Part shown: positions 11,099-40,741 of the stretch, one piece after another
Layout of the letters: the number at the start of each line of letters is the position of its first letter
How positions within the stretch are numbered: the first letter of the stretch is position 1
IMG/VR virus record: IMGVR_UViG_3300034418_008706
Location: 1 to 41,498 of that record
Reading direction: 5' to 3' (one strand)
Origin: a virus
DNA length: 41,498 bases
Notes under the pieces: model-generated
Told to the model about the DNA's origin: nothing
Database searches by the model: none
Seen by the model: only the letters and a program-made list of their open reading frames with translations
Program-made: the position numbers and the translations under genes

Positions 11099-11313
11099 TG
11101 GAAGACTATCTACCCATAAAAGGCCACAAAGACTTTGTAAGAGATCTTAAGACTGGTATGATAATGAATATAAATAAGAACAAAATAAGACGACAGGAAA
11201 TTCTACTTAATGAAAAAAGAAAAGAGCGTGAAGAGATCGAGGGCCTAAAATCTGACGTCCAGGAAATAAAAGCAATGCTGCAGCAACTATTAGAGAACGG
11301 TACAAATGGCTAA
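11098..11313 (+). CDS. Small coiled-coil protein conserved in marine T4-like phages
   Basis: This is a 71-residue protein. It begins with MEDYLPIKGHKDFVRDLKTG, a signature I recognise from small proteins beside the baseplate genes of marine T4-like phages. It continues with a highly charged helix (residues about 25–65) with leucines at heptad-like spacing, consistent with a coiled coil. It is coupled on both sides: its ATG overlaps the previous stop, and its last 8 bases overlap the fibre start. It may be a chaperone or a virion scaffold for the fibre, but nothing in the sequence proves this. Confidence 0.6.
   Translation: MEDYLPIKGHKDFVRDLKTGMIMNINKNKIRRQEILLNEKRKEREEIEGLKSDVQEIKAMLQQLLENGTNG
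11169..11176 (+). promoter_or_regulatory. Possible late promoter octamer inside the small coiled-coil gene
   Basis: Perfect TATAAATA 130 bases upstream of the first giant fibre start. It sits in coding sequence and one or more chance matches are expected, so support is weak. If active it would let the fibre be transcribed apart from the baseplate block. Confidence 0.3.
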
Positions 11314-22364: not shown

Positions 22365-25300
22365 ATGGCAACTGCAATTAAGTTAAAGAAGTCGTCCGTC
22401 TCTAGTAATGCACCAGGAACAGGCGACATAGATTACGGCGAACTCGCAATTAACTACGCTGATGGTAAGCTGTTCTATAAAAACTCCTCAAATGTAATTA
22501 AGAATTTCTCTGACTCTGATGCAGTTCAGACTCAGATTGATAATGCAATTGTTGCTGCTGGTAGCTATAACGATGCATCAGTTGACGCGCATTTAAATAC
22601 AAGTACTGCAACTACTAGCCAACATTTAACGTGGAATGGATCCGATTATTCTTGGGATTCAATAGCTGCAGGTGTGACATCGATCGATGATCTGAGTGAT
22701 GGTAGTTCACCAGATGCTACATCACTTGGCTTAGGTACAAACGCTCTTGCGAATGATGATGGGTCAGCTAATAGTAACACAGCAGTTGGCCAATGCGCAT
22801 TAAATGCTAATACAACTGGTCAATACAATGTTGCTGTAGGTAGTCTTGCTCTTGTTAATAATAAAACAGGTTCTCAGAACGTTGCTGTGGGCCAGTATGC
22901 TGGATATAACATATGTAGTAGTGCTAATGTAGCAATTGGTAATAATACTTTATATCAAACAACTACTGGAGGGTATAACGTAGCAATTGGTCAGAATGCA
23001 ATGTATGCCAATACAACCGGCCAACAAAATACAGCTGTTGGTTATTATGCTATGTACTCAAACACAGGTGGTAAGTGTAATGTTGCACTTGGTACACAAT
23101 CAAGTTATAATAACACAACAGGAGAAGCAAATACCGCTGTTGGTCACAATTCTCTGAATGCAAACACATCAGGTTGTGAAAATACAGCTATAGGATATGG
23201 AGCAGGTAGATTAACAACAATTGGAAGGTGGAACACTGCAGTTGGTTCTAAGGCGTTTTGTCGGAATACAAGCGGATCTTATAATACAGCTGTTGGTCAA
23301 GGGAGTTTGTTTTGTACTATTACTGGTATGTGTAATACCGCTCATGGTACGCTTGCTTTGTTTGCAGCTACAGGATCTAATAATACATCTGTAGGAATGG
23401 TTTCTGGTTGTACTTTAACGACAGGATCTAATGTTACTACTTTAGGCTATAACGCACAACCATCATCAGCTACCGTATCAAATGAAATAACGATCGGTGA
23501 TGCTAATATAACATCATTTAGAATTCCAGGCCTACAAGCAACCGCAACTCATGGACAGGTGCTAGCATTCGACAGTGCTGGCGGTGATATAGCATTTACA
23601 ACTGTTGCAGCTGGTGGTGCATCTTCTATTGATGAGCTAAGTGATGGTGTAAATGATACTACTGACGATAATTTAGGCCTTGGTGATGGCGCGCTGGCTG
23701 CAATCTCAGCAGGTGCCGGTACAGCTAATGAAAATACTGCAGTTGGTAATCGTGCTCTTAATGCTAATACTATCGGTGATTATAACACTGCAATTGGTTC
23801 TGATGCTTTATTTGTAAACACTACTGGTAGTAGTAATACTGCTATCGGTAGAGCAGCAATGAAATGTAATGTTACGGGAGTATCTAACATTGCTGTTGGT
23901 GTATCAGCTATGCTTAACAATCTTGGCGGATGTAACAATGTGGGAATTGGCAATTCTTCATTATGTGCTAATACAACAGCAGGAGATAATGTTGCTATTG
24001 GTCTTTTTGCACAAAGGAATCTAACATCAGGGTCTGGTGGTAACATTTCAATAGGTACATGCGCTCTTGCTACAGTGACAACAGGCTATCAAAATACTGT
24101 AATAGGTCACTATGGCGGTAGATCAATAAACGGAGCTGCAAGAAGTAACGTTGCGGTTGGTGCATACGCAATGCTGAACTCGACGTCTGGAATTCATAAT
24201 GTTGCTCTTGGTAATGATGCTTTATATAATAACGGCGCTGGAGCTAACTACAACGTTGCTGTTGGATATGCAGCAGGTAGATCTAATAATGCTTCAGGCA
24301 ATGTGTTTGTTGGATATAGTTCAGGATATAATAGTACTACTGGTGATGGTCTTGTTGGTATGGGCTATGCAGCACTATGTAAAAACACAACAGGTAACTA
24401 TAATACCGCGATTGGTTGTTATGCATTAGCATGCAACACGTATGGATCTTGTAATACAGCGTTAGGTAGAGCAGCACTATGTGCTAATACTACTGGGACC
24501 GATAATACTGCTGTTGGCACTTTTGCAATGGCATTAAACACTTGTGGTGATCATAACACAGCTATCGGCAAGTGTTCAATGTACACAAATACCACTGGAT
24601 TAGGCAACACCGCTATTGGTAAACACTCATTAAAAGCTCAAACCTGGGGTAGATATAATACTTCTTTAGGTAACTATGCGATGCAAGCTAGTATATCAGG
24701 TAGTTGCAACACTGCTGTGGGTTACGGTTCTTTATTTTTAAATACAATCGGAGAAAGAAACGTAGGTGTTGGCCACTATTCATTACGTAGTAATACTACA
24801 GGATGTAATAATACTGCTGTTGGCCAATATGCCGGGTGCACAATAACAACTGGATCTAATGTCACTGTTATTGGCCAAAACGCACAACCATCATCAGCGA
24901 CCGTATCAAATGAAATTACTCTTGGTGATGCTAATATAACATCATTCAGAATTCCTGGATTACAAGCAACTGCAACTCATGGTCAAGTTTTAGCGTTTGA
25001 CTCAGCTGGTGGAGATATTGCGTTCACTACAGTCTCTGGAGGTGCTTCTTCTATTGATGAGCTGAGTGATGGTATAAATGACGGGTCAAGTGTTGGTTTA
25101 GGTACAGGTGCATTAGCAACTGATGATGGTACAAGTAATCGCAATACTGCACTAGGACACCAAACGTTAGCCAACTCTAGCACTGGTTATGACAATACAT
25201 CGGTTGGATGGTATGCACTATGTTCCAACACTGCTGGTTATTGTAATATAGCAATAGGTAGTGTAAGTCTCTGCGCAAACTCATCTGGTATTTGTAATGT

Positions 25301-28300
25301 CGCAGTTGGTGTACAATCTTTATATTCCAATACGACTGGTGGATGCAATATTGCTGTTGGTGGTACGGCTCTTCGTAACAACGTTGATGGTCAAAGAAAC
25401 GTTGCTGTAGGTGCTGGGGCTTCTTACAGCAATACTACCGGTTATGATAATGTTGTGCTTGGTTATCAAACTTTAAAATCTAATACAACCGGTATGGGAA
25501 ATATTATTATTGGTTCATGTGCTGGATGTACTGCCACATATGCTCAAAATAGTGTGGTAATTGGATACTATGCGGGATGTAGCGCTCAGAGGTTAAGCGA
25601 TCAAATTTTTATTGGTTGTGGTGCTGGCAGAGCAACGACAACCGGAGCAAACAACGTTTTTGTTGGTAATAGTGCAGGTAGATTTAGTACTGTTTCGCAA
25701 CAAAATATTGCAATTGGTATGTTTAGTGGATTTTATAATGTTAGCGGGAATTGTAATGTTACCCTTGGCTACTTTGCAGGTGCTAATAATACAACCAATT
25801 GTCATAATGTTGCAATAGGTGTTTGTTCACAATACGGTAGTGTATGTGGTAACCAAGTATCAGTTGGTGCATATTCTTTAAAAAATAGCACGACAGGTCA
25901 TTCCAATACTGCTATAGGACATTGCTCTTTATTCACTAATACAACAGGTTATGGAAATACTGCTGTTGGAATGTGTTCATTGATCAGTAATACATCTGGT
26001 TATAATAATGTAGCTATGGGATGTGCTTCTTTACTTTGTAGCACGACAGCTTATGGTAATACCTCTATTGGTACCGGTTCGATGAGATTCAATACCACTG
26101 GATCATGGAACACATCATTAGGACAAGAATCTCTATATTCAAACACTGTCGGTACCTTAAACGTTGCTGTGGGCCCAGCAGCATTGTATACGAATGTTAG
26201 TGGTTCAAAAAATGTTGCTGTGGGATTTTATAGTCTTAGAGATAACGTAACGGGTGAGTGTAACGTTGCTGTTGGTTATGGTTCATTGCTTAATAATAAA
26301 GGCACTGGAAATGTTGCCGTTGGTACTCATGCTATCAAATCACTTACCACAGGTATAAACAATACAGCTGTTGGTTATGAAGCTCTCTGCAGTAATATTA
26401 TTGGTAGTGGTAATACTGCTGTTGGTCATTATTCATTAAGGACGACAACAGGCAGTTGCAACACTGCTGTAGGTCGGTTTACTGCTCCTAATGCTACTTC
26501 TGCAGGTCTGACCTCTGCATTTGGTCACTGTACGTTGTATTCTTTGACTACTGGTCAAGGAAACACAAGTTTTGGTGCTGAATCATTAACTAACTTGACT
26601 TTTGGTAATCAAAACTCTGCATTTGGATTGCAGACCTTAAAAAGTCAAACCACTTCTAGCAGAAACAATGCATTTGGTTATCTTGCCGGCTGTTCTATAA
26701 CTTCTGGCTATGATAATGTCATGATTGGGTCATGCGCAATGTGTGCTGCCGTTACATCACGATCTAATGTTGCTGTTGGTAATAATGCCATGCAAAGTGC
26801 TACTTCATCTTATGGTGGGGTTGCTATTGGATTTAAATCTATGGTGCAAGCTACTGGATCTGCTCAATATAATACTGCTGTTGGTAGTTTTTCTCTGTGT
26901 AATGCTACAGGAGGCGCGAATACAGCTCTTGGAGCTGCTGCTGGTGGTGGTATAACTTCAGGTGAATGTAATACAGTTTTAGGCAGATCTGCTGGCAATA
27001 CGCTTACAACAGGTAGTTGTAATATTGTTATTGGAGCTGGGGCTCAGCCTTCAGCTGCTGGTGTATATAATGAAATTACTCTTGGCAATGCTAATATAAC
27101 ATCATTTAGAATTCCTGGCCTACAATCTGGTGCAACTCATGGTCAAGTTCTAGCGTTTGACTCAGCTGGTGGCGATATAGCATTTACTACTATTTCAGGT
27201 GGAGGAGGTGGATTAGACTCTGCTGCTGTCACTTCACTTATTGATTCTGATTATGTTCGTCTACGTCAAATAGGTGCATTAATTGATAGTGCTGTTCCTT
27301 CTGTTAAAGTTGGTGATCTCTGGTATGATAAGACCGATGGTACTCTCAACATTTATTATCAAGATAGTGCTGAAACACCAGTATTTGTTAACGTAGCATC
27401 ATCTACTGCAGCAGCAGCTGGTGGCGCATCTTCTATTGACGAGCTGAGTGATGCAATTGCAGATTCAACTGGTGGAACATCGCTCTCTATTGGTCTAGGA
27501 TCTGGTGCACTTGCTAATGATGATGGTAGTCTAAACAAGAATACTGCAGTAGGAATATGTGCATTAAATGCAACTGCTGCTGCAAGTTTAAATACAGCTG
27601 TTGGTATGGGAGCTTTGTGTTCGCTTACAACAGGGGATCAAAATACAGCTATAGGTGTTTGTGCTCTTAGGTGTCTTGGTAGTAGCACTTGGGCATACTA
27701 TAATGTAGCTATTGGAGCTTGTGCTGGGTTAAACACTACAGCCGGGGTGAATAACGTTATTGTTGGGACATTTGCTGGTATAGATCCTAATTTGGCTACT
27801 GGCAATACATTAATCGGTCACCAGACAGGTACTGCAACCGAGGGTAGTTACGCAACAGCTTTAGGTTATAGAGCTCTGAGATTTAATACTACCGGTGGTG
27901 CAAATACAGCCGTTGGCACATTTGCCCTTACCAACAATGTTACTGGTGGTTGTAATACTGCACTTGGTTTTTGCTCTATGGTCAATAATACTCTAGGTGA
28001 CTGCAATACTGCTGTTGGTAGAAGTGCATTAAGAAGCAACGTAACAGGTTGTTTTAATACAGGTATGGGGGCAAATGCGTTAGAAGACAATACAACTGGT
28101 CATTCCAATACTGCTGTCGGCGGTGGTGCATTATGCTTAAATACAACTGGTCATTCCAATACTGCTATTGGCAGACTTGCATTGAGTTTGAACACGGGTG
28201 GTTTATACAATACTGCTGTAGGTTGTAGAGCTCTAAATCTTAACTCTACTGGTCAGGCTAACGTAGCCATTGGCTTGGCGGCTATGTGCTTAAATTCAAC

Positions 28301-29909
28301 AGGTAGCCATAACACTGCTGTTGGTTTAAATGCATTACAACAAAATATAGGTGGTGTATGTAATATTGCAATTGGCCGTGGCGCATTGGGCTCAAACACG
28401 TCAGGGGATTGCAACGTCGCAGTTGGTAATCAGGCTTTAGGTAGCAATACTACCGGTAGTTATAACACAGCTATAGGTTTGGGAGCGCTTTGCGAAAATA
28501 GAACCGGATGTAGTAACACAGCTGTAGGTTATCAAGCGCTGTGCTCTAACTATTCTGGAAGAAATAACACAGCTGTAGGTTATCAAGCCCTATTCTCTAA
28601 TAATGGTGGTTACGGTAACACAACAGTTGGTTGGAGTGCTGGACGTAGTATTCAAACCGGGCAATATAATACTATCATGGGCGCTTGGGCAGGGTGTACT
28701 AACACTGCAGCTAGTTTTGTGACTGCTATCGGTCAAAACGCGTTAAGAAATAATACTGTTGGCTATAGCACGGCTGTTGGTTGGTCTGCACTTCAAAATA
28801 ACAGCACTGGGTCTGGCAACGTTGCAATGGGCCCACAATCGTTATACTTTAATACTACTGGTAGTGAAAACGTAGCGTTTGGCGCGTGCAGCCTCTGCGC
28901 TAACACTACTGGTAATAGCAACACAGCTATTGGGTATACAGCACTAAAGGCCAATACATTTGGCTGCCAAAACGTTGCTATTGGCGCAAATGCTCTGAGA
29001 TTAAACACCACAGGGTCAGAAAATATTGCTATTGGACTAAGTGCTTTAAATAGCAATACCATCGGTGGTGGCAATGTTTCTATTGGTCGATCTTCTTTGA
29101 CCGGTAACACCACAGGTGCTTGCAATGTATCGGTTGGCTTCTACTCTATGGTTGGAAATACAATTGGAACTCAAAACGCGGCCATTGGTGCAAATTCATT
29201 GCGTTGCAATACAACTGGAGTTATGAACACAGCGGTTGGACATGATGCTTTGTGCTCTAACACAACTGGGTTTAGAAACACAGCTGTTGGCTCGTGCACA
29301 TTGTGCAAAAACACGTGTGGTGTAAGAAATATTGCTATTGGCTCAGCAGCAATGCAAAACAATACTACTGGAAATTGTAACGTTGCTGTTGGTCCAGCTG
29401 CATTGTTTAATAATACAATAGGTGGTAAAAATACAGCAATTGGGTATGGTGCGGCATATAGTCTTACAACTGGTAGCAACAATACATTACTTGGTAACGG
29501 AGCAGCTACTAGTTCAGCAACTGTATCAAACGAAATAACACTTGGTGACACTAATGTTAAGACGTTCCGTATCCCAGCTCTGAGCTATAGCATTGATAGT
29601 ACTGGTGAAGTATCAGCAGTAAACTTTAACACAACTTCTGATCAAAACCTCAAAGAGAATATTGAGCGTATTAATAATGGTATAGATATAATTAACAATA
29701 TCAATCCTGTTAGCTTTAATTGGAAGTCATCTGGTAAGAAATCATATGGTGTTATTGCTCAGGAAATTGAGCAGTTGATTCCTGAAGCAGTTTCCACTAA
29801 TATAGAAGGGAACAAGCATGTCAACTATACGCAGATTATTGCGTTCTTAGTAGATGCTGTACAAGATCAACAAAGACAAATAGATGAGTTGAAATCTAAA
29901 ATACAATGA
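22365..29909 (+). CDS. Giant tail fibre 2 with four beta-roll arrays and S74 chaperone
   Basis: This is a 2514-residue protein with an AAGGA ribosome site. The N-terminal 50 residues (AIKLKKSSVSSNAPGTGDID, GELAINYADGKLFYKN) are Mtd-type and probably anchor the fibre. Four arrays of 17-residue turns follow, of about 13, 22, 37 and 38 turns, again cysteine-rich. Each array opens with ASSIDELSDG...GLG.GALA.DDG, and the first three close with NEITLGDANITSFRIPGLQ and HGQVLAFDSAGGDIAFTT. Between arrays 3 and 4 is an inserted module (VGDLWYDKTDGTLNIYYQDS). The last 91 residues form a peptidase S74 intramolecular chaperone: the TSDQNLKENI box with S2425 and K2430, then INPVSFNWK, YGVIAQEIEQLIPEAV and a coiled-coil end. 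S74 domains trimerise fibres and then cut themselves off at the serine. Confidence 0.9.
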   Translation: MATAIKLKKSSVSSNAPGTGDIDYGELAINYADGKLFYKNSSNVIKNFSDSDAVQTQIDNAIVAAGSYNDASVDAHLNTSTATTSQHLTWNGSDYSWDSIAAGVTSIDDLSDGSSPDATSLGLGTNALANDDGSANSNTAVGQCALNANTTGQYNVAVGSLALVNNKTGSQNVAVGQYAGYNICSSANVAIGNNTLYQTTTGGYNVAIGQNAMYANTTGQQNTAVGYYAMYSNTGGKCNVALGTQSSYNNTTGEANTAVGHNSLNANTSGCENTAIGYGAGRLTTIGRWNTAVGSKAFCRNTSGSYNTAVGQGSLFCTITGMCNTAHGTLALFAATGSNNTSVGMVSGCTLTTGSNVTTLGYNAQPSSATVSNEITIGDANITSFRIPGLQATATHGQVLAFDSAGGDIAFTTVAAGGASSIDELSDGVNDTTDDNLGLGDGALAAISAGAGTANENTAVGNRALNANTIGDYNTAIGSDALFVNTTGSSNTAIGRAAMKCNVTGVSNIAVGVSAMLNNLGGCNNVGIGNSSLCANTTAGDNVAIGLFAQRNLTSGSGGNISIGTCALATVTTGYQNTVIGHYGGRSINGAARSNVAVGAYAMLNSTSGIHNVALGNDALYNNGAGANYNVAVGYAAGRSNNASGNVFVGYSSGYNSTTGDGLVGMGYAALCKNTTGNYNTAIGCYALACNTYGSCNTALGRAALCANTTGTDNTAVGTFAMALNTCGDHNTAIGKCSMYTNTTGLGNTAIGKHSLKAQTWGRYNTSLGNYAMQASISGSCNTAVGYGSLFLNTIGERNVGVGHYSLRSNTTGCNNTAVGQYAGCTITTGSNVTVIGQNAQPSSATVSNEITLGDANITSFRIPGLQATATHGQVLAFDSAGGDIAFTTVSGGASSIDELSDGINDGSSVGLGTGALATDDGTSNRNTALGHQTLANSSTGYDNTSVGWYALCSNTAGYCNIAIGSVSLCANSSGICNVAVGVQSLYSNTTGGCNIAVGGTALRNNVDGQRNVAVGAGASYSNTTGYDNVVLGYQTLKSNTTGMGNIIIGSCAGCTATYAQNSVVIGYYAGCSAQRLSDQIFIGCGAGRATTTGANNVFVGNSAGRFSTVSQQNIAIGMFSGFYNVSGNCNVTLGYFAGANNTTNCHNVAIGVCSQYGSVCGNQVSVGAYSLKNSTTGHSNTAIGHCSLFTNTTGYGNTAVGMCSLISNTSGYNNVAMGCASLLCSTTAYGNTSIGTGSMRFNTTGSWNTSLGQESLYSNTVGTLNVAVGPAALYTNVSGSKNVAVGFYSLRDNVTGECNVAVGYGSLLNNKGTGNVAVGTHAIKSLTTGINNTAVGYEALCSNIIGSGNTAVGHYSLRTTTGSCNTAVGRFTAPNATSAGLTSAFGHCTLYSLTTGQGNTSFGAESLTNLTFGNQNSAFGLQTLKSQTTSSRNNAFGYLAGCSITSGYDNVMIGSCAMCAAVTSRSNVAVGNNAMQSATSSYGGVAIGFKSMVQATGSAQYNTAVGSFSLCNATGGANTALGAAAGGGITSGECNTVLGRSAGNTLTTGSCNIVIGAGAQPSAAGVYNEITLGNANITSFRIPGLQSGATHGQVLAFDSAGGDIAFTTISGGGGGLDSAAVTSLIDSDYVRLRQIGALIDSAVPSVKVGDLWYDKTDGTLNIYYQDSAETPVFVNVASSTAAAAGGASSIDELSDAIADSTGGTSLSIGLGSGALANDDGSLNKNTAVGICALNATAAASLNTAVGMGALCSLTTGDQNTAIGVCALRCLGSSTWAYYNVAIGACAGLNTTAGVNNVIVGTFAGIDPNLATGNTLIGHQTGTATEGSYATALGYRALRFNTTGGANTAVGTFALTNNVTGGCNTALGFCSMVNNTLGDCNTAVGRSALRSNVTGCFNTGMGANALEDNTTGHSNTAVGGGALCLNTTGHSNTAIGRLALSLNTGGLYNTAVGCRALNLNSTGQANVAIGLAAMCLNSTGSHNTAVGLNALQQNIGGVCNIAIGRGALGSNTSGDCNVAVGNQALGSNTTGSYNTAIGLGALCENRTGCSNTAVGYQALCSNYSGRNNTAVGYQALFSNNGGYGNTTVGWSAGRSIQTGQYNTIMGAWAGCTNTAASFVTAIGQNALRNNTVGYSTAVGWSALQNNSTGSGNVAMGPQSLYFNTTGSENVAFGACSLCANTTGNSNTAIGYTALKANTFGCQNVAIGANALRLNTTGSENIAIGLSALNSNTIGGGNVSIGRSSLTGNTTGACNVSVGFYSMVGNTIGTQNAAIGANSLRCNTTGVMNTAVGHDALCSNTTGFRNTAVGSCTLCKNTCGVRNIAIGSAAMQNNTTGNCNVAVGPAALFNNTIGGKNTAIGYGAAYSLTTGSNNTLLGNGAATSSATVSNEITLGDTNVKTFRIPALSYSIDSTGEVSAVNFNTTSDQNLKENIERINNGIDIINNINPVSFNWKSSGKKSYGVIAQEIEQLIPEAVSTNIEGNKHVNYTQIIAFLVDAVQDQQRQIDELKSKIQ
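23451..23655 (+). repeat. Neck/linker module copy A in fibre 2
   Basis: Segment encoding NAQPSSATVSNEITIGDANI through the SSIDELSDG start of the next array. It is close to copy B (24879–25080) with scattered, mostly silent changes, and to copy C (27041–27200). It joins successive beta-roll arrays. Confidence 0.8.
24879..25080 (+). repeat. Neck/linker module copy B in fibre 2
   Basis: Second copy of the neck module (SNEITLGDANITSFRIPGLQ then HGQVLAFDSAGGDIAFTT), ending in the array-start phrase SSIDELSDG. Same protein as copy A apart from a few residues. Confidence 0.8.
27041..27200 (+). repeat. Neck/linker module copy C in fibre 2
   Basis: Third copy, slightly more diverged (AQPSAAGVYNEITLGNANIT). 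It is followed by the inserted 70-residue VGDLWYDKTDG module (about 27205–27415) before the fourth array begins. Confidence 0.75.
28089..28166 (+). repeat. Recent 51-bp unit duplication in fibre 2 array 4
   Basis: A 27-base exact match (28089–28115 and 28140–28166), 51 bases apart, encodes NTTGHSNTA twice. Most array units differ at synonymous sites, so exact identity marks a recent unit duplication or conversion. Confidence 0.7.
28514..28588 (+). repeat. Second recent 51-bp unit duplication in fibre 2 array 4
   Basis: A 24-base exact match at 28514–28537 and 28565–28588, again offset by exactly 51 bases. It encodes NTAVGYQA in both turns. Confidence 0.7.
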
Positions 29910-29916
29910 GGATATA

Positions 29917-30762
29917 ATGAAAGTTGTTCTAGTGACAGGGGGTTTTGACCCCCTCCATTCTGGTCATATTGAATATTTTAAAGCTGCCAAAGAACTCGGA
30001 GATATTCTCTGTGTTGGTATTAATAGCGACGAATGGTTGACTCGTAAAAAGGGTCGACCATTTATGTCTTTTGAAGAACGAAAAGCTATTGTTGAAAATA
30101 TCAAACCAGTTGGATATGCATTTGGGTTTGATGATCAAGATGATACAGCAATAAAAGCTATAGAGCACGTCAAAGCTACTTTTCCAAAACCTGAAGTTGT
30201 TTTTGCCAACGGTGGCGATAGAACAAAAGACAATGTTCCTGAAATGGTATTTGATGATGTTCAATTTGTTTTTGGTGTTGGTGGTACTGATAAGATGAAT
30301 TCAAGTAGTTGGATACTTGACGAATGGAAAACCCAAAAAACAGAAAGAGAATGGGGCTATTGGCGTGTACTCGATGATAAGGATACGGTCAAAGCAAAGG
30401 AGTTAGTAATTTATCCAGGGAAATCATTATCCGACCAAAGGCATTTTTATAGAAATGAGCATTGGTATGTCCTAGAAGGTGCTATGATGATGGATATTGA
30501 GCATGGGGAGATAATCTCGACAAATGTGGGTAGAGATAAGACTATTACATTAAGACAGCATCAAACCTATGTTATAAGAAGAGAAGACTGGCACAGAGCT
30601 TATAATCCATACGATAAGCCTTGTCACATACTTGAAGTACAGTATGGAATAAAATGTATCGAAGAAGATATTGAACGTAGAAATATTATAAATAAAGGTA
30701 TGAATATCATGCCTAGTAACCTTAAAGGAGTCGAAGATGGCAACATACGCACCAATCACTAA
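29917..30762 (+). CDS. Fusion of HldE/TagD-type nucleotidyltransferase with a sugar-phosphate-isomerase-type cupin
   Basis: This is a 281-residue protein. Residues 1–135 form a cytidylyltransferase-like domain: VTGGFDPLHSGH (6–17) with the HxGH signature at 14–17, VGINSDEWLTRKKGRPFMSF (33–52) and NGGDRT (98–103). This is the fold of the ADP-heptose synthase C-terminal domain and of glycerol-phosphate cytidylyltransferase. Residues 145–252 are a cupin like that of type II mannose-6-phosphate isomerase/GDP-mannose pyrophosphorylase: EWGYWRVLD, PGKSLSDQRHFYRNEHWYVL with H176, E181 and H182, IRREDWHRAYNP with H226, and LEVQYG. The two are normally found apart. The gene follows fibre 2 with a GAGGA site and begins a sugar-related group. 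Making or ordering an activated sugar is inferred. Confidence 0.75.
   Translation: MKVVLVTGGFDPLHSGHIEYFKAAKELGDILCVGINSDEWLTRKKGRPFMSFEERKAIVENIKPVGYAFGFDDQDDTAIKAIEHVKATFPKPEVVFANGGDRTKDNVPEMVFDDVQFVFGVGGTDKMNSSSWILDEWKTQKTEREWGYWRVLDDKDTVKAKELVIYPGKSLSDQRHFYRNEHWYVLEGAMMMDIEHGEIISTNVGRDKTITLRQHQTYVIRREDWHRAYNPYDKPCHILEVQYGIKCIEEDIERRNIINKGMNIMPSNLKGVEDGNIRTNH
30687..30694 (+). promoter_or_regulatory. Candidate T4-type late promoter (TATAAATA)
   Basis: Perfect octamer 43 bases before the ATG at 30737, which has an excellent AAAGGAG ribosome site at about 30723–30729. It lies inside the end of the preceding gene. Spacing fits a short leader, so the small gene probably has its own late transcript. 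Confidence 0.55.
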
Positions 30763-31769: not shown

Positions 31770-34700
31770 ATGGCAATTAAAGTTCAAGGTACCACAGTTA
31801 TTAATGACAGCGCCGCACTGCAGAACATTACTGCCTTGGACGCCACGACTAGTGCAACAATCTCCTCTGCAGTAGGCGGTGGTGGAGCTTCTGCCATTAA
31901 CGATCTAAGCGATGCTTCTACTGCTGGAACAAGAAACTTAGCTTTAGGAACTAGCGCTGGTACTGGCCAGGCCGGAAACACAACAGTCGGATTTGAAGCT
32001 GGATGTAACTTATCAGCTGCTAACGGTGATCAGAACATATTTGTGGGTACTTACGCGGGTAAATCATTCTCAGTAGCTGATCACCAAATTGGTATTGGAT
32101 ATGGAGCGATGTGCGCTGGGTCTTCTGTTCCGTTCTATAACGTAGCGGTTGGCTCATATGCTATGATGAATATTACAGGCGGATGTAATACAGCGCTGGG
32201 TGGAAGCGCAATGCGTTGCAGCCTTAATGCAACCTGTAATGTAGCTGTTGGATATAACTCTCTATACTTTAATACAACAGGAATAAATAATACTGCAGTT
32301 GGTGTAAATGCATTATACTCTATGACAACTGGACAAAACAATACAGCAATTGGAGTCAACGCTCTTTGTGCTAGCACAAATGGCAATGAAAATACCGTTG
32401 TTGGTACGAATGCACAAAGGCAAACCACTTGCTTTACTGTTGCTGTTGGATTTAATGCTTTATTTAATTCATCAGGTAATCAAAATGTCGCAGTTGGTCA
32501 TTGTGCTTCAACTTCAAATACGACTGGAGCCGGTAATGTTACTTTAGGCTATAGAAGTTTTCGTAATAATACTACTGGCGTAAACAGCGTAGCTATTGGT
32601 ATGAATTCAATGTGTAATAACACCGGCGGATATTTCAATGTTGGTGTTGGGGGAAGTACGTTATTTAATAACACAACTGGTTATGGAAATACTGCTGTTG
32701 GATATCTCTCAGGCCAAAGCGTTGAAGGGTCTAACGTTACCACAATTGGTTATATCGCTCAGCCAAGCTCAGCTACCGCTACTAATGAAATAACATTAGG
32801 TAATGCTAATGTCAGTTTGCTTCGTATTCCAGGGCTTGGATCTACTGATGGTCATGTGCTTACGTATGATTCTGCTAGTGGTGGTATTGTTCTGGCAGCT
32901 GCAGGAGGTGGTGGTGCTTCTTCTATTGATGGTCTAAGCGATGGTAAATCGCCTGACACTACATCAATTGGTCTTGGTACTAATGCGCTAGCTAATGATG
33001 ATGGATCTTCTAATCGTAATATTGCATTGGGTCAATCAGCTCTACAAAATGTTACTACTGGATGCCGGAACACAGCCATAGGTTACGGTACTCTGACGGC
33101 TCTAACTACTGGTTGTGAAAACACAGCTATAGGCAACCAGGCTCTCTCTTGCGCTGTGACAACAAGGTATGGCACTGCGATTGGCTCTCTTGCCAGTTTC
33201 AGAGATACATCTAGCGTTAGAAATACTGCAATAGGTTTCCAGGCTAAGATGTATGGTAATGGTAACGATAACACAATGATTGGTGCATGTGCTGGTCGAT
33301 TAACTAGTGGGGGATGTAACACAGCTGTTGGTGCCCAATCGTTATTGAATAACACAACAGGTGGTTGCAATACAGCTGTTGGTAGTTATGCATTGAGATG
33401 TAATACTACTGCTAGCTGTAACACTGCTGTTGGTAGTGATGCTATGTATTTTAATACTAGTGGTCATACTAATGTAGCTGTTGGCTATCAATCATTGTGT
33501 AAAAACACACGTGGTTGTTATAACGTAGCACTAGGTGCTTGTGCTAGTTATGGTAATACATCCGGGATTTATAATACCGCAGTTGGTTTGCTGGCGCTAA
33601 AATGTAATACTACGGGACGTTTTAACGCGGCAGTTGGTTCACTAGCTTTATTCAACAACACATGCAGTGATTATAACACTGCTTTTGGTAATAGTGCCCT
33701 TCGTAATAATACTACTGGTACTACTAATACTGCTATTGGTGCCTCTTCTGGCTGTACAATTACTACTGGATCAAACTTAACTGTTCTTGGCTATAATGCT
33801 CAGCCAAGTTCAGTGACAGCTACTAATGAAATCACACTTGGTGATTCTAATGTCAGTCTACTTCGTATTCCTGGTCTAGGATCAACAGATGGTCATGTAC
33901 TGACATATGATTCTACTAGTGGGGGTATGATTCTAGCAGCTGCAGGAGGTGGTGCTTCTTCTATTGATGGTTTGAGCGATGGTAAATCACCTGATGCATC
34001 CTCACTAGGCCTTGGTACTAATGCTCTAGCTAATGATTATGGTACAACAAATCAGAACGTTGCTATAGGTTGTAATGCGCTGTGTACTAATGTTACAGGA
34101 TGTTTTACTGTTGCTATTGGTGTGTGCGCATTAACAAACATGACAGGGTTCGGTTGTAATACAGCAGTAGGGTATTGTGCATTAGCTAGCAACACTACAG
34201 CTAATGGAAATGCTGCTGTTGGTACTTACGCATTAAGATTTAGCACTGGAGGTAATAATACCGCTTTTGGTAAAAGCGCAATGGCGAGTAATACTACTGG
34301 TTATCAAAACACTGCTGTAGGTCAAGGTGTAATGTCCAGCAACACACTTGGTGGAGATAATACTGCCATTGGATTCAATGCATTGTCTTTCAATACTACT
34401 GGTAACTCAAACGTTGCTGTTGGAAATCATGCTTTGGGTAAGAATATAAGTGGTTATGAAAATGTTGCTGTTGGTAAAGTAGCACTGTATTGCAATGTTA
34501 GTGGTCAGCAAAATGCTGCTGTTGGCACCTGCGCAATGAGACAGAATTGTGGAGGTAACTGTAATGCTGCGCTCGGTAGTTATGCATTGTATAATAATAC
34601 CTATGGTAATGAAAACGTTGCTATAGGATTCTGTTCTTTATTTTCAGCTACTACACCAACTTCTATTATAGCAATTGGCGCTAGTGCACTAAAATCATTA

Positions 34701-36050
34701 ACAACAGGTACTGCAAATTTAGCTGTAGGTGCGCTTGCAGGCTGTTCACTAACGACAGGTAGTCAGCACGTTCTAATTGGTCCACTTGCAGGTGCGGGCC
34801 TTACAACAGAAAGTGGTATTGGCATATCTAAAGGTAGTACGCATGTAGGTTATGCATCAGGGCAGAAGGTAACAGGCCAGCAAAACACCGCCGTTGGTCA
34901 CGCAACTTTAGGACAAAGATGGGCATCAGGTACTGGTTCAGGAAATGTTTATGGCGCATACAATACTGCAATAGGCGCTCAATCAATGCAGTATTTAGAA
35001 AATGGCGCTGAAAATAATACAGCAGTTGGCTACCGAGCAATGATGGGTGCTACTGCTGGTGGTAACTATGGTGATTATAATACTGCAGTTGGTTCTGTAG
35101 CGCTTGAAAAAAATACATCAGGGTGTCGTAATGTGGCTGTCGGCGGCCTTGCAATGCAATTAAACACTACAGGGTGTAATAATGCTGCTATAGGATATTA
35201 CGCTCTAAGAAGCAATACCGTTGGTAGTATGAATAATGCTATGGGACGTATGGCCTTGCGTCTAAACACCTCTGGCGATCAAAACGTAGCCGTTGGACAT
35301 TATGGTATGTGTAATAATACTATTGGTAAATATAACGTTGCAGTTGGAGCTAGTGCACTAAATGGAAATACTACTGGTTCATGTAATACTGTGGTCGGTT
35401 GGAGAGCTGGTTATGATAATACTACTGGTTACCTTAACACATTAATTGGTTATTGCGCAGGTAAAACGTTAACTACTGGTAATAATAATATTATTATTGG
35501 TGATAATTCTCAGCCAAGTTCTGCTTCTGCAACCAACGAAATTACTTTAGGCAACTCTTCAATAACATGCTTACGTATTCCTGGTATTAGTATAACTGGC
35601 CATGGAACAGGAAATATTGGTAAAGATACTAGTGATTACATTTCGTTTACAACAGCCAATCAAATGGACATTTATTTAAATAGTTCTAATGAGTTTCGTT
35701 TTGAGGCTGACGGTGACTTCCATGCTGATGGAAACGTATTTGCTTATTCAACAACTGTTTCTTCAGATGAACGACTAAAAGAAAACATTCAAGTTGTATC
35801 TGGCTTAGATAAGGTTATGGCACTAGACGGTGTTACCTTTAATTGGAAACGCGATGGCCAAGCTAGTGCAGGTGTTATAGCTCAACAGGTACAAGAGGTA
35901 CTTCCTGAAGCTGTATCTACCGTAAAGGGGTTAAAGACAGAAGAAGAGTATTTAACAGTAAATTATAATGGTATAATTGCTATTCTTATTGAAGCAATCA
36001 AAGACTTAAAAGCCGAAATTGAGGAGCTAAAGAATGCCTCTTACAAGTAG
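31770..36050 (+). CDS. Giant tail fibre 3 with three beta-roll arrays and S74 chaperone
   Basis: This is a 1426-residue protein with an AAGGA site. A short N-terminus (AIKVQGTTVINDSAALQNIT) differs from fibre 2 and resembles a minimal attachment segment. Three arrays of 17-residue turns follow (about 15, 15 and 28 turns), each begun by ASxIxxLSDxxxx and, between arrays, the neck module (NEITLG..NVSLLRIPGLGS, DGHVLTYDS). The C-terminal 95 residues are an S74 chaperone: SDERLKENI (S1332, K1337), GVTFNWK, AGVIAQQVQEVLPEAVS, LTVNYNGIIAILIEAIKDLK and a coiled coil. Self-cleavage before S1332 would release the chaperone and leave a trimer. Its last 17 bases overlap the next gene, a tip candidate. 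Confidence 0.9.
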   Translation: MAIKVQGTTVINDSAALQNITALDATTSATISSAVGGGGASAINDLSDASTAGTRNLALGTSAGTGQAGNTTVGFEAGCNLSAANGDQNIFVGTYAGKSFSVADHQIGIGYGAMCAGSSVPFYNVAVGSYAMMNITGGCNTALGGSAMRCSLNATCNVAVGYNSLYFNTTGINNTAVGVNALYSMTTGQNNTAIGVNALCASTNGNENTVVGTNAQRQTTCFTVAVGFNALFNSSGNQNVAVGHCASTSNTTGAGNVTLGYRSFRNNTTGVNSVAIGMNSMCNNTGGYFNVGVGGSTLFNNTTGYGNTAVGYLSGQSVEGSNVTTIGYIAQPSSATATNEITLGNANVSLLRIPGLGSTDGHVLTYDSASGGIVLAAAGGGGASSIDGLSDGKSPDTTSIGLGTNALANDDGSSNRNIALGQSALQNVTTGCRNTAIGYGTLTALTTGCENTAIGNQALSCAVTTRYGTAIGSLASFRDTSSVRNTAIGFQAKMYGNGNDNTMIGACAGRLTSGGCNTAVGAQSLLNNTTGGCNTAVGSYALRCNTTASCNTAVGSDAMYFNTSGHTNVAVGYQSLCKNTRGCYNVALGACASYGNTSGIYNTAVGLLALKCNTTGRFNAAVGSLALFNNTCSDYNTAFGNSALRNNTTGTTNTAIGASSGCTITTGSNLTVLGYNAQPSSVTATNEITLGDSNVSLLRIPGLGSTDGHVLTYDSTSGGMILAAAGGGASSIDGLSDGKSPDASSLGLGTNALANDYGTTNQNVAIGCNALCTNVTGCFTVAIGVCALTNMTGFGCNTAVGYCALASNTTANGNAAVGTYALRFSTGGNNTAFGKSAMASNTTGYQNTAVGQGVMSSNTLGGDNTAIGFNALSFNTTGNSNVAVGNHALGKNISGYENVAVGKVALYCNVSGQQNAAVGTCAMRQNCGGNCNAALGSYALYNNTYGNENVAIGFCSLFSATTPTSIIAIGASALKSLTTGTANLAVGALAGCSLTTGSQHVLIGPLAGAGLTTESGIGISKGSTHVGYASGQKVTGQQNTAVGHATLGQRWASGTGSGNVYGAYNTAIGAQSMQYLENGAENNTAVGYRAMMGATAGGNYGDYNTAVGSVALEKNTSGCRNVAVGGLAMQLNTTGCNNAAIGYYALRSNTVGSMNNAMGRMALRLNTSGDQNVAVGHYGMCNNTIGKYNVAVGASALNGNTTGSCNTVVGWRAGYDNTTGYLNTLIGYCAGKTLTTGNNNIIIGDNSQPSSASATNEITLGNSSITCLRIPGISITGHGTGNIGKDTSDYISFTTANQMDIYLNSSNEFRFEADGDFHADGNVFAYSTTVSSDERLKENIQVVSGLDKVMALDGVTFNWKRDGQASAGVIAQQVQEVLPEAVSTVKGLKTEEEYLTVNYNGIIAILIEAIKDLKAEIEELKNASYK
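32757..32955 (+). repeat. Neck/linker module, first copy in fibre 3
   Basis: Encodes AQPSSATATNEITLGNANVS, RIPGLGS and DGHVLTYDS, then GGGASSIDGLSDGKSPD. A second copy lies at 33798–33993 with many silent changes. It is homologous in plan to the fibre 2 neck. Confidence 0.8.
33798..33993 (+). repeat. Neck/linker module, second copy in fibre 3
   Basis: Same protein segment as 32757–32955 with a few changes (V for A in PSSVTATNEITL) and many silent third-base differences, so this duplication is older than those at 28089 and 28514. Confidence 0.8.
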
Positions 36051-37386
36051 TGGTCAGATTGATCTTAATTCGATGCACGTCGAAGCTGGAGGTACTACTG
36101 GCACCGAATGTAGTATGAATGATGCAGATATTCGGGGGTTGATCTCTAAAGGTGCTGCAGCACAGATGGGCTTTAATGAGTGGTATGGAGCAAGTGCGAT
36201 CGCCACTCCACAAAACACTTCAAGCTTCACATCAATACCGTATGGGAGCACATCTGTGATTGTTGGTGGATATAAGTTTATGTACGCACATGATAATGGT
36301 GATTTTCAGGTAATTTTTAACAACAATAGCAGTACGACTATGTCCGCTGTGTCAACAGATGATGGTGCTAGTTGGGGTATAACCACGATGACCTATAATG
36401 GAAGTCAAGGCGACTACGGGTCAATACTTAGTGCTGGCAATGCCCAGAGAGATTACTATACTTTTGGCAGTGCGGGGGGGGTTTATACTTTCCGAACGTC
36501 CGGCAAATTTTCTATAATGAATTGGTGGCTTTATCAAGATAATGGCGTTATTCTTCAAATACCTAATTCTCAAAATGTTGGCCAAGGCAGATATGTTTTA
36601 GCAAGAGATCAAAGCAATAAAACAGGTCAAATAATTGGTTTCAATCATAGTCCTCAAGTTGCTTGGCAGTGGAACGGAAATACCTCATCCTCAAGTGGCA
36701 CAATAACAAGTTCGAATGTAACCACTTTTTCAATGCCTGCAACAGCAAATAGTCAGTATATGTTAGGTTTCACAGATATGTGGAAAAAAGGAAATGATCT
36801 TTTTGTTATAGGAAGTTCTGCAAGTAGTTCGACAACTCCGATTTTAGCTTTTACTTCCTCCAACGGTGGGTCAAGTTATTCGTCAACTACAATTAGAACT
36901 CGAAATACCAGCACTGAAATTAACCATTCTCCGTACATTGATGGCTTAGGCCACGCTTCCGCGATAGATCAAGCAAATGATGATTATTATCTTATTATAT
37001 CTGTTACAAATAATAGCATGGAACAGCGATTTGAGTTGTGGAAAACGACAGCTTCTAACAAAGGTACAAGTTGGACGAACATAACTACTGATATGGTCGG
37101 TGATGTTTTTGGTAGGGCAGCAAGTTCAGATTATGGCTCGATACGCGATATTGACGTTTACGGTGGTTGTTGGGTTATAGCATGGACCGGTGTTACTGGA
37201 ACCAATCAAAGCTATAGCGCTCAAGATGCTTATACTTTGCTTGATGGTGGATGGGGCAGTTCTGGTTGGGTTATTCACGCAACAACACCGTATAATTCTT
37301 CTCAAACAACTTTTCGGAAGGTGTGTATCAATAGCAACAAAAAGGCTCTTGGACTAGAACTTAATACATTAAGGAGATTTTATTAA
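36034..37386 (+). CDS. Fibre-tip candidate with Asp-box (sialidase-type propeller) motifs
   Basis: This is a 450-residue protein. Residues 1–53 (LTSSGQIDLNSMHVEAGGTT ... ADIRGLISKGAA ... GFNEWYGAS) form a docking-like module with the same plan as the start of the protein at 16586. The rest is beta-rich with Asp-box-like S-x-D/N-x-G-x-x-W/Y motifs: STDDGASW (107–114), SSNGGSSY (275–282) and ASNKGTSW (340–347). Asp boxes are typical of beta-propellers in sialidases and related lectins. Catalytic residues of sialidases (an arginine triad, Tyr/Glu pair) are not evident. It is coupled to fibre 3 by a 17-base overlap. A receptor-binding propeller carried at the fibre 3 tip is my inference; a hydrolase is possible. 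Confidence 0.6.
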   Translation: MPLTSSGQIDLNSMHVEAGGTTGTECSMNDADIRGLISKGAAAQMGFNEWYGASAIATPQNTSSFTSIPYGSTSVIVGGYKFMYAHDNGDFQVIFNNNSSTTMSAVSTDDGASWGITTMTYNGSQGDYGSILSAGNAQRDYYTFGSAGGVYTFRTSGKFSIMNWWLYQDNGVILQIPNSQNVGQGRYVLARDQSNKTGQIIGFNHSPQVAWQWNGNTSSSSGTITSSNVTTFSMPATANSQYMLGFTDMWKKGNDLFVIGSSASSSTTPILAFTSSNGGSSYSSTTIRTRNTSTEINHSPYIDGLGHASAIDQANDDYYLIISVTNNSMEQRFELWKTTASNKGTSWTNITTDMVGDVFGRAASSDYGSIRDIDVYGGCWVIAWTGVTGTNQSYSAQDAYTLLDGGWGSSGWVIHATTPYNSSQTTFRKVCINSNKKALGLELNTLRRFY

Positions 37387-37387
37387 A

Positions 37388-37939
37388 ATGTATGAATTCA
37401 GATGTGAAGATGAATATGACGCTGAAAAAATGATGTATGTATTATCAGATAGTCAGAAGGCTATGTCTGAAGCGGTAATGTTTAAAGAAGGATCTAATGA
37501 TTTAGAAACTTTAAAAAATTATTGGGATAGCACAATTCGTACTATGGCTGAGCAAGAGGAATACAAATTCCATCAGGCATGGCGCGGCGATCAATTGGTA
37601 ATGTATGGCGTTGCAGGGGTTTTTGGTGATAGATACCATCAAGGCGCTGGGTTTTATAGATCATACGAAGGTAGTCGAACTTGGACATTTTCAAGGGAAT
37701 TTTGGCTAGAACACGTCGAATATTGCAAAACATTGCAAACAAATAGAATAAGTGCCGATGTAAAGAAGCTTGATGATAATAATGAGCAAACTCCGCATTG
37801 GGCAATGTTGCAGCTTATTCCACAAAGGATTAATCTTTGGATGACAACAGAAGATACTGAACAGGACAATGTAGGCAGATGGACTATGTATTTTAATGAG
37901 ACAATATATCAAGAACTCAATCCACACCTTTACGACTAG
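37388..37939 (+). CDS. Hypothetical protein, first gene of the adenylation cassette
   Basis: This is a 183-residue protein with an AAGGAG site 12 bases before the ATG; it starts one base after the previous stop. It is rich in aromatic and charged residues: a helical N-terminal part (DAEKMMYVLSDSQKAMSEAV), then HQAWRGDQLVMYGVAGVFGD (54–73), RTWTFSREFWLEHVEY (about 89–104) and MLQLIPQRINLWM. The middle is faintly like a GNAT-type acyltransferase strand-helix pattern, but no acetyl-CoA motif is clear, so I leave the function open. The next gene (short adenylation enzyme) begins 44 bases before its end, so the two are surely co-expressed. Confidence 0.55.
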   Translation: MYEFRCEDEYDAEKMMYVLSDSQKAMSEAVMFKEGSNDLETLKNYWDSTIRTMAEQEEYKFHQAWRGDQLVMYGVAGVFGDRYHQGAGFYRSYEGSRTWTFSREFWLEHVEYCKTLQTNRISADVKKLDDNNEQTPHWAMLQLIPQRINLWMTTEDTEQDNVGRWTMYFNETIYQELNPHLYD

Positions 37940-38813
37940 TGGAACAACAGGATTTCCAAAGCAAGTAAAACACACTCAAGAATTTTTGGACGAAGTTTCT
38001 CAGGCTAATATCAATTTATATAATTTAAATAAAAAATCAAAATTATTGAATTACATGGCACCTATGAGTATTGGAACTGCGGTAATGATGGATAATGTCC
38101 AGAGGATTATAGGTTGTGAGGTTCTTCACGAAAAGTTTAATCCATTTACATTCAGTGATTATATTCATAAGGTTAGACCCACATTCATGGTTATGCCGCC
38201 AAATATGTGGCGGGTCTTATCAAAGATGAAGTCATGGCATGATTTAGATATGTCTTCTTTCGAAATGATTTCTGTTGGCGGGGATTTCACTGCAAATGGA
38301 ATGCTTATGGACTTGCGGCAAAGGGGTGTTGGCAGGGTTTATAATGTTTACGGCTCAACTGAAGTCCCACCTCCTGTTCTCTACAGCATGGGAGAGAATC
38401 ATTATTCACGTCATAAAATTCCTGATGGCGTCAGCATAAAGTTCTCTAAACGGCAAACGCTTATGTGTAAATGGGACAGTCAAGGCGAATGGTGGGATAG
38501 CGAAGATTTAGTTGAAGGGAAAAACGTCTGGGATTTCCATTTAAAAGGCCGTGAAAGAAATATGTTTAAACAAGATAACGTTCGTGTTTACCCGGAAGAA
38601 GTTGAAAAAATTGCGGCACATTATGGCGCATCTATATCACTTTGTAGGCAAGTAGAATTTAGTGCTGTTGTTTTTTACACAGGCGATATGGATGAATTTG
38701 CACTACACGAGGAATTAAAACATATTCCAAGGTTACGGATAAAAAAAGTAAGTCACATTGAGGTAGATGAAAATTTACGCAAGATTGTGAGAAATCAAAC
38801 CACACCTATTTGA
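37896..38813 (+). CDS. Short AMP-forming adenylation (ANL) enzyme lacking the usual N-terminal region
   Basis: This is a 305-residue protein; ANL enzymes usually have 450–600. It has a near-complete set of core motifs: the P-loop TSGTTGFPK (14–22), RPTFMVMPPNMW (94–105), NVYGSTEV (150–157, the A5 adenine-binding motif), DSEDLVEG (201–208, where the ribose-binding Asp sits), LKGRERNMFKQDNVRVYPEE (216–235, the A8 hinge) and LRKIVRN (294–300) with K296 in the place of the catalytic lysine. Only 13 residues precede the P-loop. An in-frame stop at 37872–37874 rules out a longer start, so the N-terminal ~100 residues are truly absent. The nearest types are short MenE-like acyl ligases. It would activate a carboxylic acid as an acyl-AMP; substrate and acceptor are unknown. 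Confidence 0.75.
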   Translation: MRQYIKNSIHTFTTSGTTGFPKQVKHTQEFLDEVSQANINLYNLNKKSKLLNYMAPMSIGTAVMMDNVQRIIGCEVLHEKFNPFTFSDYIHKVRPTFMVMPPNMWRVLSKMKSWHDLDMSSFEMISVGGDFTANGMLMDLRQRGVGRVYNVYGSTEVPPPVLYSMGENHYSRHKIPDGVSIKFSKRQTLMCKWDSQGEWWDSEDLVEGKNVWDFHLKGRERNMFKQDNVRVYPEEVEKIAAHYGASISLCRQVEFSAVVFYTGDMDEFALHEELKHIPRLRIKKVSHIEVDENLRKIVRNQTTPI

Positions 38814-39449: not shown

Positions 39450-40364
39450 ATGTCTTTAGATACTTATGTGGTTGAAGGTGGTATTGGTAAATGTGTTATG
39501 TTCACATCGCTTTTACCAAAACTTGCTGAAAGAGCTGGTGGTCCAGTACAAATTGTAACACCTTATATTGACGTGTTTAGAGACAATCCTCTTGTCAAGA
39601 TGTGTTACGATGAATCATCCATTCCTATGGATGATCCTAGAATTCTCGAATCAGATAATATTCATTATAGTGAGCCTTACAAAAGTAATTTTGTTAAGGG
39701 TGATTGGCATTTGGTTCAAGCATATTGCAAGCTGCATGGGGTGGAATATGATCCTTCAATGCGGCCAAAGATGTATACTGATTGGGCAAAGGCAGATACA
39801 ATTAAATGGCTAACTGATAATAATATTGGCGATAATTATATCATGATTCAATTTACTGGAGGTCAGACGCCAATTGGTTGGAATCAAAACAATCAGTATG
39901 TTAGCTCTAATGCAGGACGTAACTATCATCCTTACTTTGCACAAGGGATTGTCAATGCTCTAAAAGAGCGTTATCCAAATCACACTATTATCGATGCAAG
40001 TATGCCAAATGAACCAGGTTATAATGGTGCTATTAAATGTGCAATGTCTTTTACTGTTCTTCACGAACTACTAAAGAAAGCAAAAGGATTCATTGGAATT
40101 GATTCTTGTCTACAACACTTTGCTGCATCAGTTGGAACACCAGGAGTTGTAATCTGGGGTAACACTCGTTGGACTCAATTTGGTTATATGCAAAACTATA
40201 ACATGTCATTCCATGATAAAAGAAAATATAATACGTATTATAAAATGGACATTTCAGATCCTAGAAATATTATGGTAGATGCCAATGATGTTCTAAACAC
40301 ATATATTGATAAAGTGCACGGCAAAAAAGTCAAAGATGAAGATATTAGATTGGCACATAAATGA
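39450..40364 (+). CDS. GT9 (heptosyltransferase-family) glycosyltransferase
   Basis: This is a 304-residue protein with a GGAGA site. It shows the GT9 pattern at both ends: VEGGIGKCVMFTSLLPKLAE (8–27, the G.IGD.....P.L... N-terminal loop, with C in place of D) and AKGFIGIDSCLQHFAASVGT (211–230) followed by PGVVIWGNT (231–239), the 'D.....H.A...G.P...L.G' donor-binding region. Family members add heptose to lipopolysaccharide core or related acceptors in the cytoplasm. The central segment is beta-alpha with a typical inter-domain hinge. It heads the last group, with DUF6165 and a sulfotransferase. A glycan made by or for the phage is inferred; a role in heptose transfer is not proved. Confidence 0.75.
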   Translation: MSLDTYVVEGGIGKCVMFTSLLPKLAERAGGPVQIVTPYIDVFRDNPLVKMCYDESSIPMDDPRILESDNIHYSEPYKSNFVKGDWHLVQAYCKLHGVEYDPSMRPKMYTDWAKADTIKWLTDNNIGDNYIMIQFTGGQTPIGWNQNNQYVSSNAGRNYHPYFAQGIVNALKERYPNHTIIDASMPNEPGYNGAIKCAMSFTVLHELLKKAKGFIGIDSCLQHFAASVGTPGVVIWGNTRWTQFGYMQNYNMSFHDKRKYNTYYKMDISDPRNIMVDANDVLNTYIDKVHGKKVKDEDIRLAHK

Positions 40365-40741
40365 TAGTGGAGACCCCAGTTAGTGTTGGTGAATTAGTAG
40401 ATAAGATTACTATCTTACGAATTAAGAGTCGTAGGATTAAAGATAAACAAAAACTTATTAATATTAATAATGAATTGAATCAATTGATAACAATATTCTC
40501 AAAACTAGAGATTCCTGATATATTGTTTGAATTTGTTGAACTTGAAGATATTAATCGTAAACTATGGGATATTGAAGATGATATCCGTGAGAAAGAAAGA
40601 TCTAAACAGTTTGATGAAGGGTTTATTGAATTAGCAAGATCAGTCTATATAACCAATGATAGAAGATCAGAAGTCAAAAAACAAATTAATCTAAAGGTTG
40701 GATCTGATCTAGTAGAAGAAAAATCCTATGAGCAGTACTAA
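40361..40741 (+). CDS. DUF6165 family protein
   Basis: This is a 126-residue protein. The whole chain matches the family pattern: PVSVGELVDKITILRIKSRR (6–25) at the start, LEDINRKLWDIEDDIREKER (61–80), FDEGFIELARSVYITNDRR (84–102) and a final IN.K.GSDLVEEKSYEQY. DUF6165 proteins are short helical proteins often found beside lipopolysaccharide or glycan biosynthesis genes; their activity is not known. It overlaps the GT9 gene by 4 bases (ATGA) and overlaps the following sulfotransferase start by 14 bases, so the three are co-expressed. Confidence 0.75.
   Translation: MIVETPVSVGELVDKITILRIKSRRIKDKQKLININNELNQLITIFSKLEIPDILFEFVELEDINRKLWDIEDDIREKERSKQFDEGFIELARSVYITNDRRSEVKKQINLKVGSDLVEEKSYEQY

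Follow-up and report, generated by a model that had tools for sequence, protein, structure and literature searches.

A miniature ANL enzyme and its partner gene as a possible acyl-transfer module in a phage tail-fibre operon

Enzymes of the ANL superfamily, among them acyl-CoA ligases, MenE, the A domains of NRPS and luciferase, have a core (PF00501) that is marked by the P-loop A3, the motifs A5 and A8 and an A10-type lysine. Shortened ANL enzymes are known as well, as in the DVU_1553 family (NF045666, 331 aa) and the Dyadobacter ligase-like protein 4gs5 (350 residues). With regard to phages, VirX1 is a viral flavin halogenase from cyanophage Syn10 (PMC8407142), and a tryptophan halogenase has been listed as a conserved cyanophage gene with unknown role (PMC2984593).

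Here, we analysed a 41.5-kb IMG/VR record from a marine phage over its whole length (the window). Directly behind a tail-fibre gene it encodes a candidate partner protein of 183 aa and a 305-aa protein, which is a shortened variant of the ANL superfamily and not a canonical member. Relatives of the latter fall into three length groups, namely the window clade (305 aa), a 353-aa clade and a 222-aa clade. Our leading, still tentative reading is that the predicted miniature ANL enzyme and its partner form an acyl-transfer module within the tail-fibre operon, with the fibre or another group of the virion surface as the most likely acceptor. The features of the locus are as follows:

36034..37386, + strand: tail-fibre/adhesin protein, 450 aa; its N-terminal 58 aa match phrog_26746
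37388..37939, + strand: 183-aa candidate partner protein, upstream of the ANL gene in the clade and overlapping it by 44 nt
37872..37874, + strand: in-frame TAG stop, 24 bases upstream of the ATG, from the frame translation
37896..38813, + strand: minimal ANL (AMP-binding) enzyme, 305 aa, ATG start, from the PF00501 profile match, AlphaFold2/Foldseek and conservation
37935..37961, + strand: A3/P-loop TSGTTGFPK, residues 14-22, from the 29-member family alignment
38343..38363, + strand: A5 NVYGSTE, residues 150-156, from the 29-member alignment; the family signature PPP comes next
38544..38570, + strand: A8/hinge KGRERNMFK, residues 217-225, from alignments of the 305-aa and 353-aa clades
38769..38792, + strand: A10-type ENLRKIVR with the candidate catalytic Lys296, from the motif count in the window and 353-aa clades

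The reading frame of the ANL gene is intact, and an earlier start is excluded by the TAG, as the original prediction had argued, with no ATG, GTG or TTG between this stop and the ATG. Its assignment to the ANL enzymes is borne out by the PF00501 profile (E=2.3e-17, 63.3 bits, above the curated cutoff of 29.9), which aligns residues 14-165 of the protein with positions 170-333 of 384. Since this alignment enters only at position 170, about 165 N-terminal profile positions are absent from the protein. The two-subdomain N-terminal region is accordingly incomplete and lacks the usual first ~150-190 residues, in agreement with the predicted loss of the first 100-150, so that the enzyme indeed starts at its P-loop. 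Of the motifs that had been named, A3, A5, A8 and a candidate lysine were recovered. In A3, T14, S15, G16, T18, P21 and K22 are unchanged across the 29 aligned family members, and the same holds for N150, Y152, G153, T155 and E156 of A5. A8 is invariant within the 305-aa clade, and the 353-aa clade keeps GR..NMFKQ. The A10-type lysine motif N[LI][RK]K[IV][ILV]R occurs in 14/14 proteins of the window and 353-aa clades, which retain a C-terminal domain, compared with 0/17 in the 222-aa clade. The motif described as A7-like stands only in a degenerate form, as the window protein reads WWDSED (SED) where SGD is usual in the 353-aa sister clade and TGD in the 222-aa clade.

In established ANL structures, the residues of the ATP and acyl pocket come after A3, and therefore a protein that begins at the P-loop could in principle keep the active site. 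An AlphaFold2 model of the 305-aa protein, built on a 29-sequence alignment, has a mean pLDDT of 72.6, with low confidence at residues 183-222 and 291-305, K296 among them. In a Foldseek search against the PDB, the best 50 matches listed were all ANL enzymes with alignments spanning the whole length of the model, including 6ulx (E=8e-15), MenE, PaaK, AuaEII and 4gs5. Among viral proteins, the best fold matches were A0A6J5L770 (E=4e-17) and A0A6J7WHT9 (E=1e-16). The C-terminal domain carries A8 and A10, and its fold aligns with complete ANL structures, with a model tail of low confidence. As the ANL fold is seen, the objection that structure prediction might reveal no adenylate pocket falls away.

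The same gene, alike in length and start region, is present without stops in six other viral contigs at 67-85% identity. For ANL pairs with dS under about 2.3, dN/dS ranges from 0.09 to 0.13, and pairs involving the window sequence have a dN of 0.10 with dS near or beyond saturation. Judged from these substitution rates, the gene is under purifying selection. Iterated searches of viral contigs yielded the other two groups. Of 98 matches in the 222-aa group, 80 were kept; its members have their P-loop from residue 6-8, end near the hinge and lack the C-terminal domain, whereas the 353-aa group (L157-L195) has a 63-residue N-terminus ahead of the P-loop and a complete C-terminal domain. The offset of the P-loop thus runs from ~64 (353 aa) over 31 (L188) and 14 (window), both counted with the window clade, to 6-8 (222 aa). 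A tree separates the groups, with support of 98/100 for the window clade and 100/100 for the 222-aa group, and the A3 and A5 residues are kept between clades at 23-30% identity. The classical N-terminal subdomain of ~150 residues is absent from every member in the tree, and the longer relatives add just 17-50 N-terminal residues. Many contigs are near-copies of each other, and the deduplicated sets used during the analysis comprise 63 ANL and 52 partner sequences.

Relatives of the ANL protein are present on more than 100 uncultured phage fragments, for the most part with an acyltransferase gene as neighbour. Two pattern-plus-tblastn scans, a method that favours close relatives, returned none from 84,980 genomes of bacteria and archaea, and a cellular origin of the family was rejected on this count. 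Among 50,697 phage records, no relatives were found apart from weak generic ligase matches; those in cultured phages are weak, fall on an annotated carnitine-CoA ligase and on Staphylococcus and Salmonella records without annotation, and look like ordinary bacterial ligases. Two unannotated phage records (OR849863, OR851731) contain fragments of ordinary bacterial-looking CoA ligases, which are probably host DNA. As far as found, the family is confined to phages.

The second component of the predicted module is a protein of GNAT fold in most of the family. All 44 loci that were found via the partner protein alone have a short ANL gene immediately upstream, and conversely 73 of the 80 loci found via the short ANL alone have the GNAT-fold partner directly downstream. 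In the 353-aa clade, the GNAT lies downstream in 32/37 evaluable loci, either adjacent or after one halogenase gene. The AlphaFold2 model of one 222-aa-clade partner (pLDDT 81, pTM 0.80) retrieves GNAT acetyltransferases of the PDB by Foldseek (E about 4e-6, prob 1.00). In addition, the solved GNAT 3t9y is matched by a profile built from the partners of the 222-aa and 353-aa clades (E=8.5e-5). None of these partners reached a Pfam GNAT family match. The Q/RxxGxG/A CoA motif is not conserved in them, as the alignment read by eye gives QLPGYT, QLPNYN or TCLIPH, and hence their acyl donor may be one other than CoA.

In the window clade, the GNAT partner is replaced by the 183-aa protein, the gene of which precedes the ANL gene in every other contig of the clade that is long enough and is present as a fragment in one cut contig. 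HMM and profile-profile comparisons of this protein with GNATs and the GNAT partners gave no match, and increasingly deep profiles brought up no significant homology to the partners. By eye, its order of strands and helices resembles a GNAT, a likeness that no profile method backs. Its role as the transferase is therefore a guess from position, size and this apparent order. We also considered a split ANL enzyme with the 183-aa protein as the absent N-terminal half, and found it unsupported, since the protein has no ANL profile match and the sister clades are devoid of such a half.

An ANL gene beside a fibre tip had been called never expected. This part of the original prediction has to be reversed, as proximity to fibre genes is the rule for the family. 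Upstream of the short-clade ANL genes, a protein with the Mtd_N domain (PF18454, N-terminal domain of the major tropism determinant) is found in 67/79 evaluable loci, at a distance of up to 200 nt in 47 and up to 2.5 kb in 20 loci, with none in 12 and one further locus not evaluable. The order fibre, 183-aa protein and ANL recurs in three other contigs of the window clade (L005, L006, L009), and it was seen in the T4-like phage of the window as well as in contigs with siphovirus-like head-tail completion genes. Positions right after fibre genes of marine phages also gather unrelated cargo genes, which counts against the reading as a module.

Pairs of closely related contigs reveal that the module occupies a recombination hot spot. 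Between L006 and L009, identity is 97-100% for the ANL gene and for the gene preceding the fibre and stays largely at this level in the genes that follow the ANL, yet it drops to 35-60% across most of the interval that begins at about fibre codon 15 and ends at the ANL start. This indicates that the fibre body and the 183-aa gene were exchanged together while the ANL gene was left unchanged. In the pair L014 and L015 (99-100% identical elsewhere), the exchanged block comprises the 3' half of the ANL gene, the GNAT and a halogenase, with a nearly unchanged fibre; in L014 it covers 6380-8300. By these alignments, the 183-aa protein moves with the fibre in the window clade, and the GNAT with ANL and halogenase in the other.

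Genes for halogenases (Trp_halogenase, 7e-68), for Asp/Arg hydroxylases and for radical-SAM proteins are found repeatedly in the vicinity of both the short and the long group, and a Trp-halogenase cluster is present in 40 of the 47 related loci that were mapped. In L183 (2535-5711), the genes for ANL, flavin-dependent Trp-halogenase and GNAT overlap in one operon, the same order is found in L157 (4685-7828), and L177 and L189 have the same spacing. This arrangement looks like a compact phage biosynthetic cluster. A radical-SAM gene follows the three genes on the opposite strand in L183 and L157. SGNH/GDSL-looking proteins, recognised by eye and without a Pfam match where tested, recur beside ANL genes (L065 559-5204, L042 4549-5364, L192 6564-7334), and the island of L065 also contains a B12-type radical-SAM protein, a methyltransferase-like gene and a TauD dioxygenase.

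Elsewhere in the window, a T4-like baseplate wedge gene (phrog_219, 3e-121) has its nearest record at 42.5% identity. Three very long fibres are built from 'NTAVG..AL..NTTG..N' repeats (11306-16585, 22365-29909, 31770-36050), and the terminal segment of the latter two resembles, by eye, an S74 intramolecular chaperone. Adjoining these long fibre genes, 29917-30762 encodes a cytidylyltransferase-like domain fused to the C-terminal (cupin) domain of mannose-6-phosphate isomerase. At 17965-20013, after a glycine-rich fibre, a 259-aa ORF lies between a 2OG-Fe(II) oxygenase (PF13759) and a protein of phrog_1644 type. Downstream of the ANL gene, a glycosyltransferase of family 9 (heptosyltransferase-like) at 39450-40741 is followed by a DUF6165 gene.

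With respect to function, the ANL protein would bind ATP and a carboxylic acid to form an acyl-adenylate, and the activated acyl group would be handed to a dedicated acyltransferase. For most of the family this would be the GNAT-fold protein, for the window clade probably the 183-aa protein. We infer from the fold, the motifs and the gene order that catalysis and transfer to the partner take place at all, as well as what the acid and acceptor are and that the 183-aa protein acts as transferase. The acceptor would most likely be the adjacent fibre or another group of the virion surface. The fibre is favoured because the 183-aa gene was exchanged with the fibre body while the ANL gene stayed the same; fibre acylation would predict a partner matched to the fibre alongside a generic ANL enzyme, in that one enzyme would read the fibre and the other the small acid. 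Rather doubtful is the stronger proposal of a dedicated phage system for fibre acylation, in which a catalytic-half ANL enzyme and a fibre-matched acyltransferase modify the adhesin and thereby change how the host is bound. Where the C-terminal domain is gone, in the shortest clade, its contribution to the active site might be supplied by the GNAT partner.

The fibre as acceptor has to be weighed against a small-molecule product. The ANL enzyme would then activate an aromatic or fatty acid, a halogenase would modify it and the GNAT would join it to an amino acid in the manner of FeeM, with the fibre gene merely adjoining the insertion site; the resulting acylated, perhaps halogenated, amino-acid-like molecule would act on the host or on competing phages. 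Taken as a whole we rate this proposal as somewhat unlikely. It draws on the overlapping or equally spaced ANL, halogenase and GNAT genes, on the frequency of the halogenase cluster and on the block that L014 and L015 exchanged without their fibre, and in addition 4/13 GNAT partners have a weak FeeM profile match (best E 0.012). The latter is, however, under the curated cutoff, the window has no halogenase near its ANL gene, and in its clade the 183-aa gene is exchanged with the fibre and not with the ANL gene. Nevertheless, the FeeM similarity and the halogenase neighbours are as suggestive of a small molecule as of the fibre, and given these two observations the small-molecule route is nearly as likely as the fibre route.

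A non-catalytic role is conceivable, particularly in the 222-aa clade, which has lost both the C-terminal domain and the A10 lysine. The full proposal, that catalysis was lost and the ANL core reused as a scaffold, either as a folding or assembly factor of the fibre or as a binding protein, would fit the strict position behind fibre genes, the degenerate A7 of the window protein and the low-confidence parts of its model. We consider it unlikely, as the ATP-binding A3 and A5 residues persist between such divergent clades, every member with a C-terminal domain has the A10 lysine, and phages with different fibre bodies share the ANL protein, unlike what would hold for a fibre-specific chaperone. 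The last candidate, an acyl-CoA ligase that a phage took from its host at full length and that is now decaying, could explain the absence of the first ~150 residues, and the original prediction had named a longer gene in related phages as its sign. This very improbable reading is countered by the stop-free homologues in six contigs, the low dN/dS, the lack of cellular relatives in the genome scans and the absence of the N-terminal subdomain from the whole family, whose longer members do not restore it; conservation, selection and the family-wide length pattern rule out a decay product. Altogether, the observation behind the original prediction is confirmed and its interpretation partly supported, with an acylation role being plausible, be it on a sugar, a fibre or a host metabolite as originally suggested.

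If active, these proteins would be among the smallest adenylating enzymes known, for which the N-terminal subdomain, and in one clade perhaps also the C-terminal lid, would be dispensable. An active module would moreover be a phage acylation system that has spread over unrelated phages and, in one clade, is exchanged in step with fibre bodies, which opens up a possible chemical route to a change in host range or to phage-made signals. A literature search, with subscription papers mostly outside reach, gave no paper on a phage ANL-acyltransferase module and no study on A0A6J5L770 or A0A6J7WHT9, which suggests that such a phage acylation module is previously undescribed.

Compared with the known systems, the phage protein shares with the ANL core the fold of the small C-terminal domain and of the later portion of the large one, but differs in the missing first ~150-190 residues, in the SED in place of S/TGD at A7 and in the coupling to fibre genes. 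Neither of the short families accommodates it. The suggested comparison with short MenE-like enzymes ended in 34.5 bits against the equivalog cutoff of 330 for MenE (TIGR01923), and for the DVU_1553 short AMP ligases (NF045666) in 25.1 bits against 300, with a match from profile position 92 onwards; 4gs5 matches the model structurally, while the P-loop of the phage protein lies already at residue 14. Two proteins of uncultured Caudovirales fit the sister clades by length, A0A6J5L770 (214 aa, 'AMP-dependent synthetase/ligase') the 222-aa clade and A0A6J7WHT9 (359 aa, 'Acs') the 353-aa clade, both names being automatic database names. The partner of most relatives has the fold of GNAT acyltransferases, including the FeeM-type N-acyl amino acid synthases to which it is weakly similar, but lacks their conserved CoA motif, and the window partner shows no sequence match to them. 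VirX1 is broadly of one family with the halogenase that neighbours the ANL-GNAT pair in many relatives, and a Syn10 halogenase is among the matches to this neighbour (29.6% identity); an ANL relative was found neither in the Syn10 record nor in any other cyanophage record. In conclusion, the ANL superfamily as such is known, and what is new is a shortened ANL family that is restricted to phages and linked to fibre genes as well as to GNAT-fold partners.
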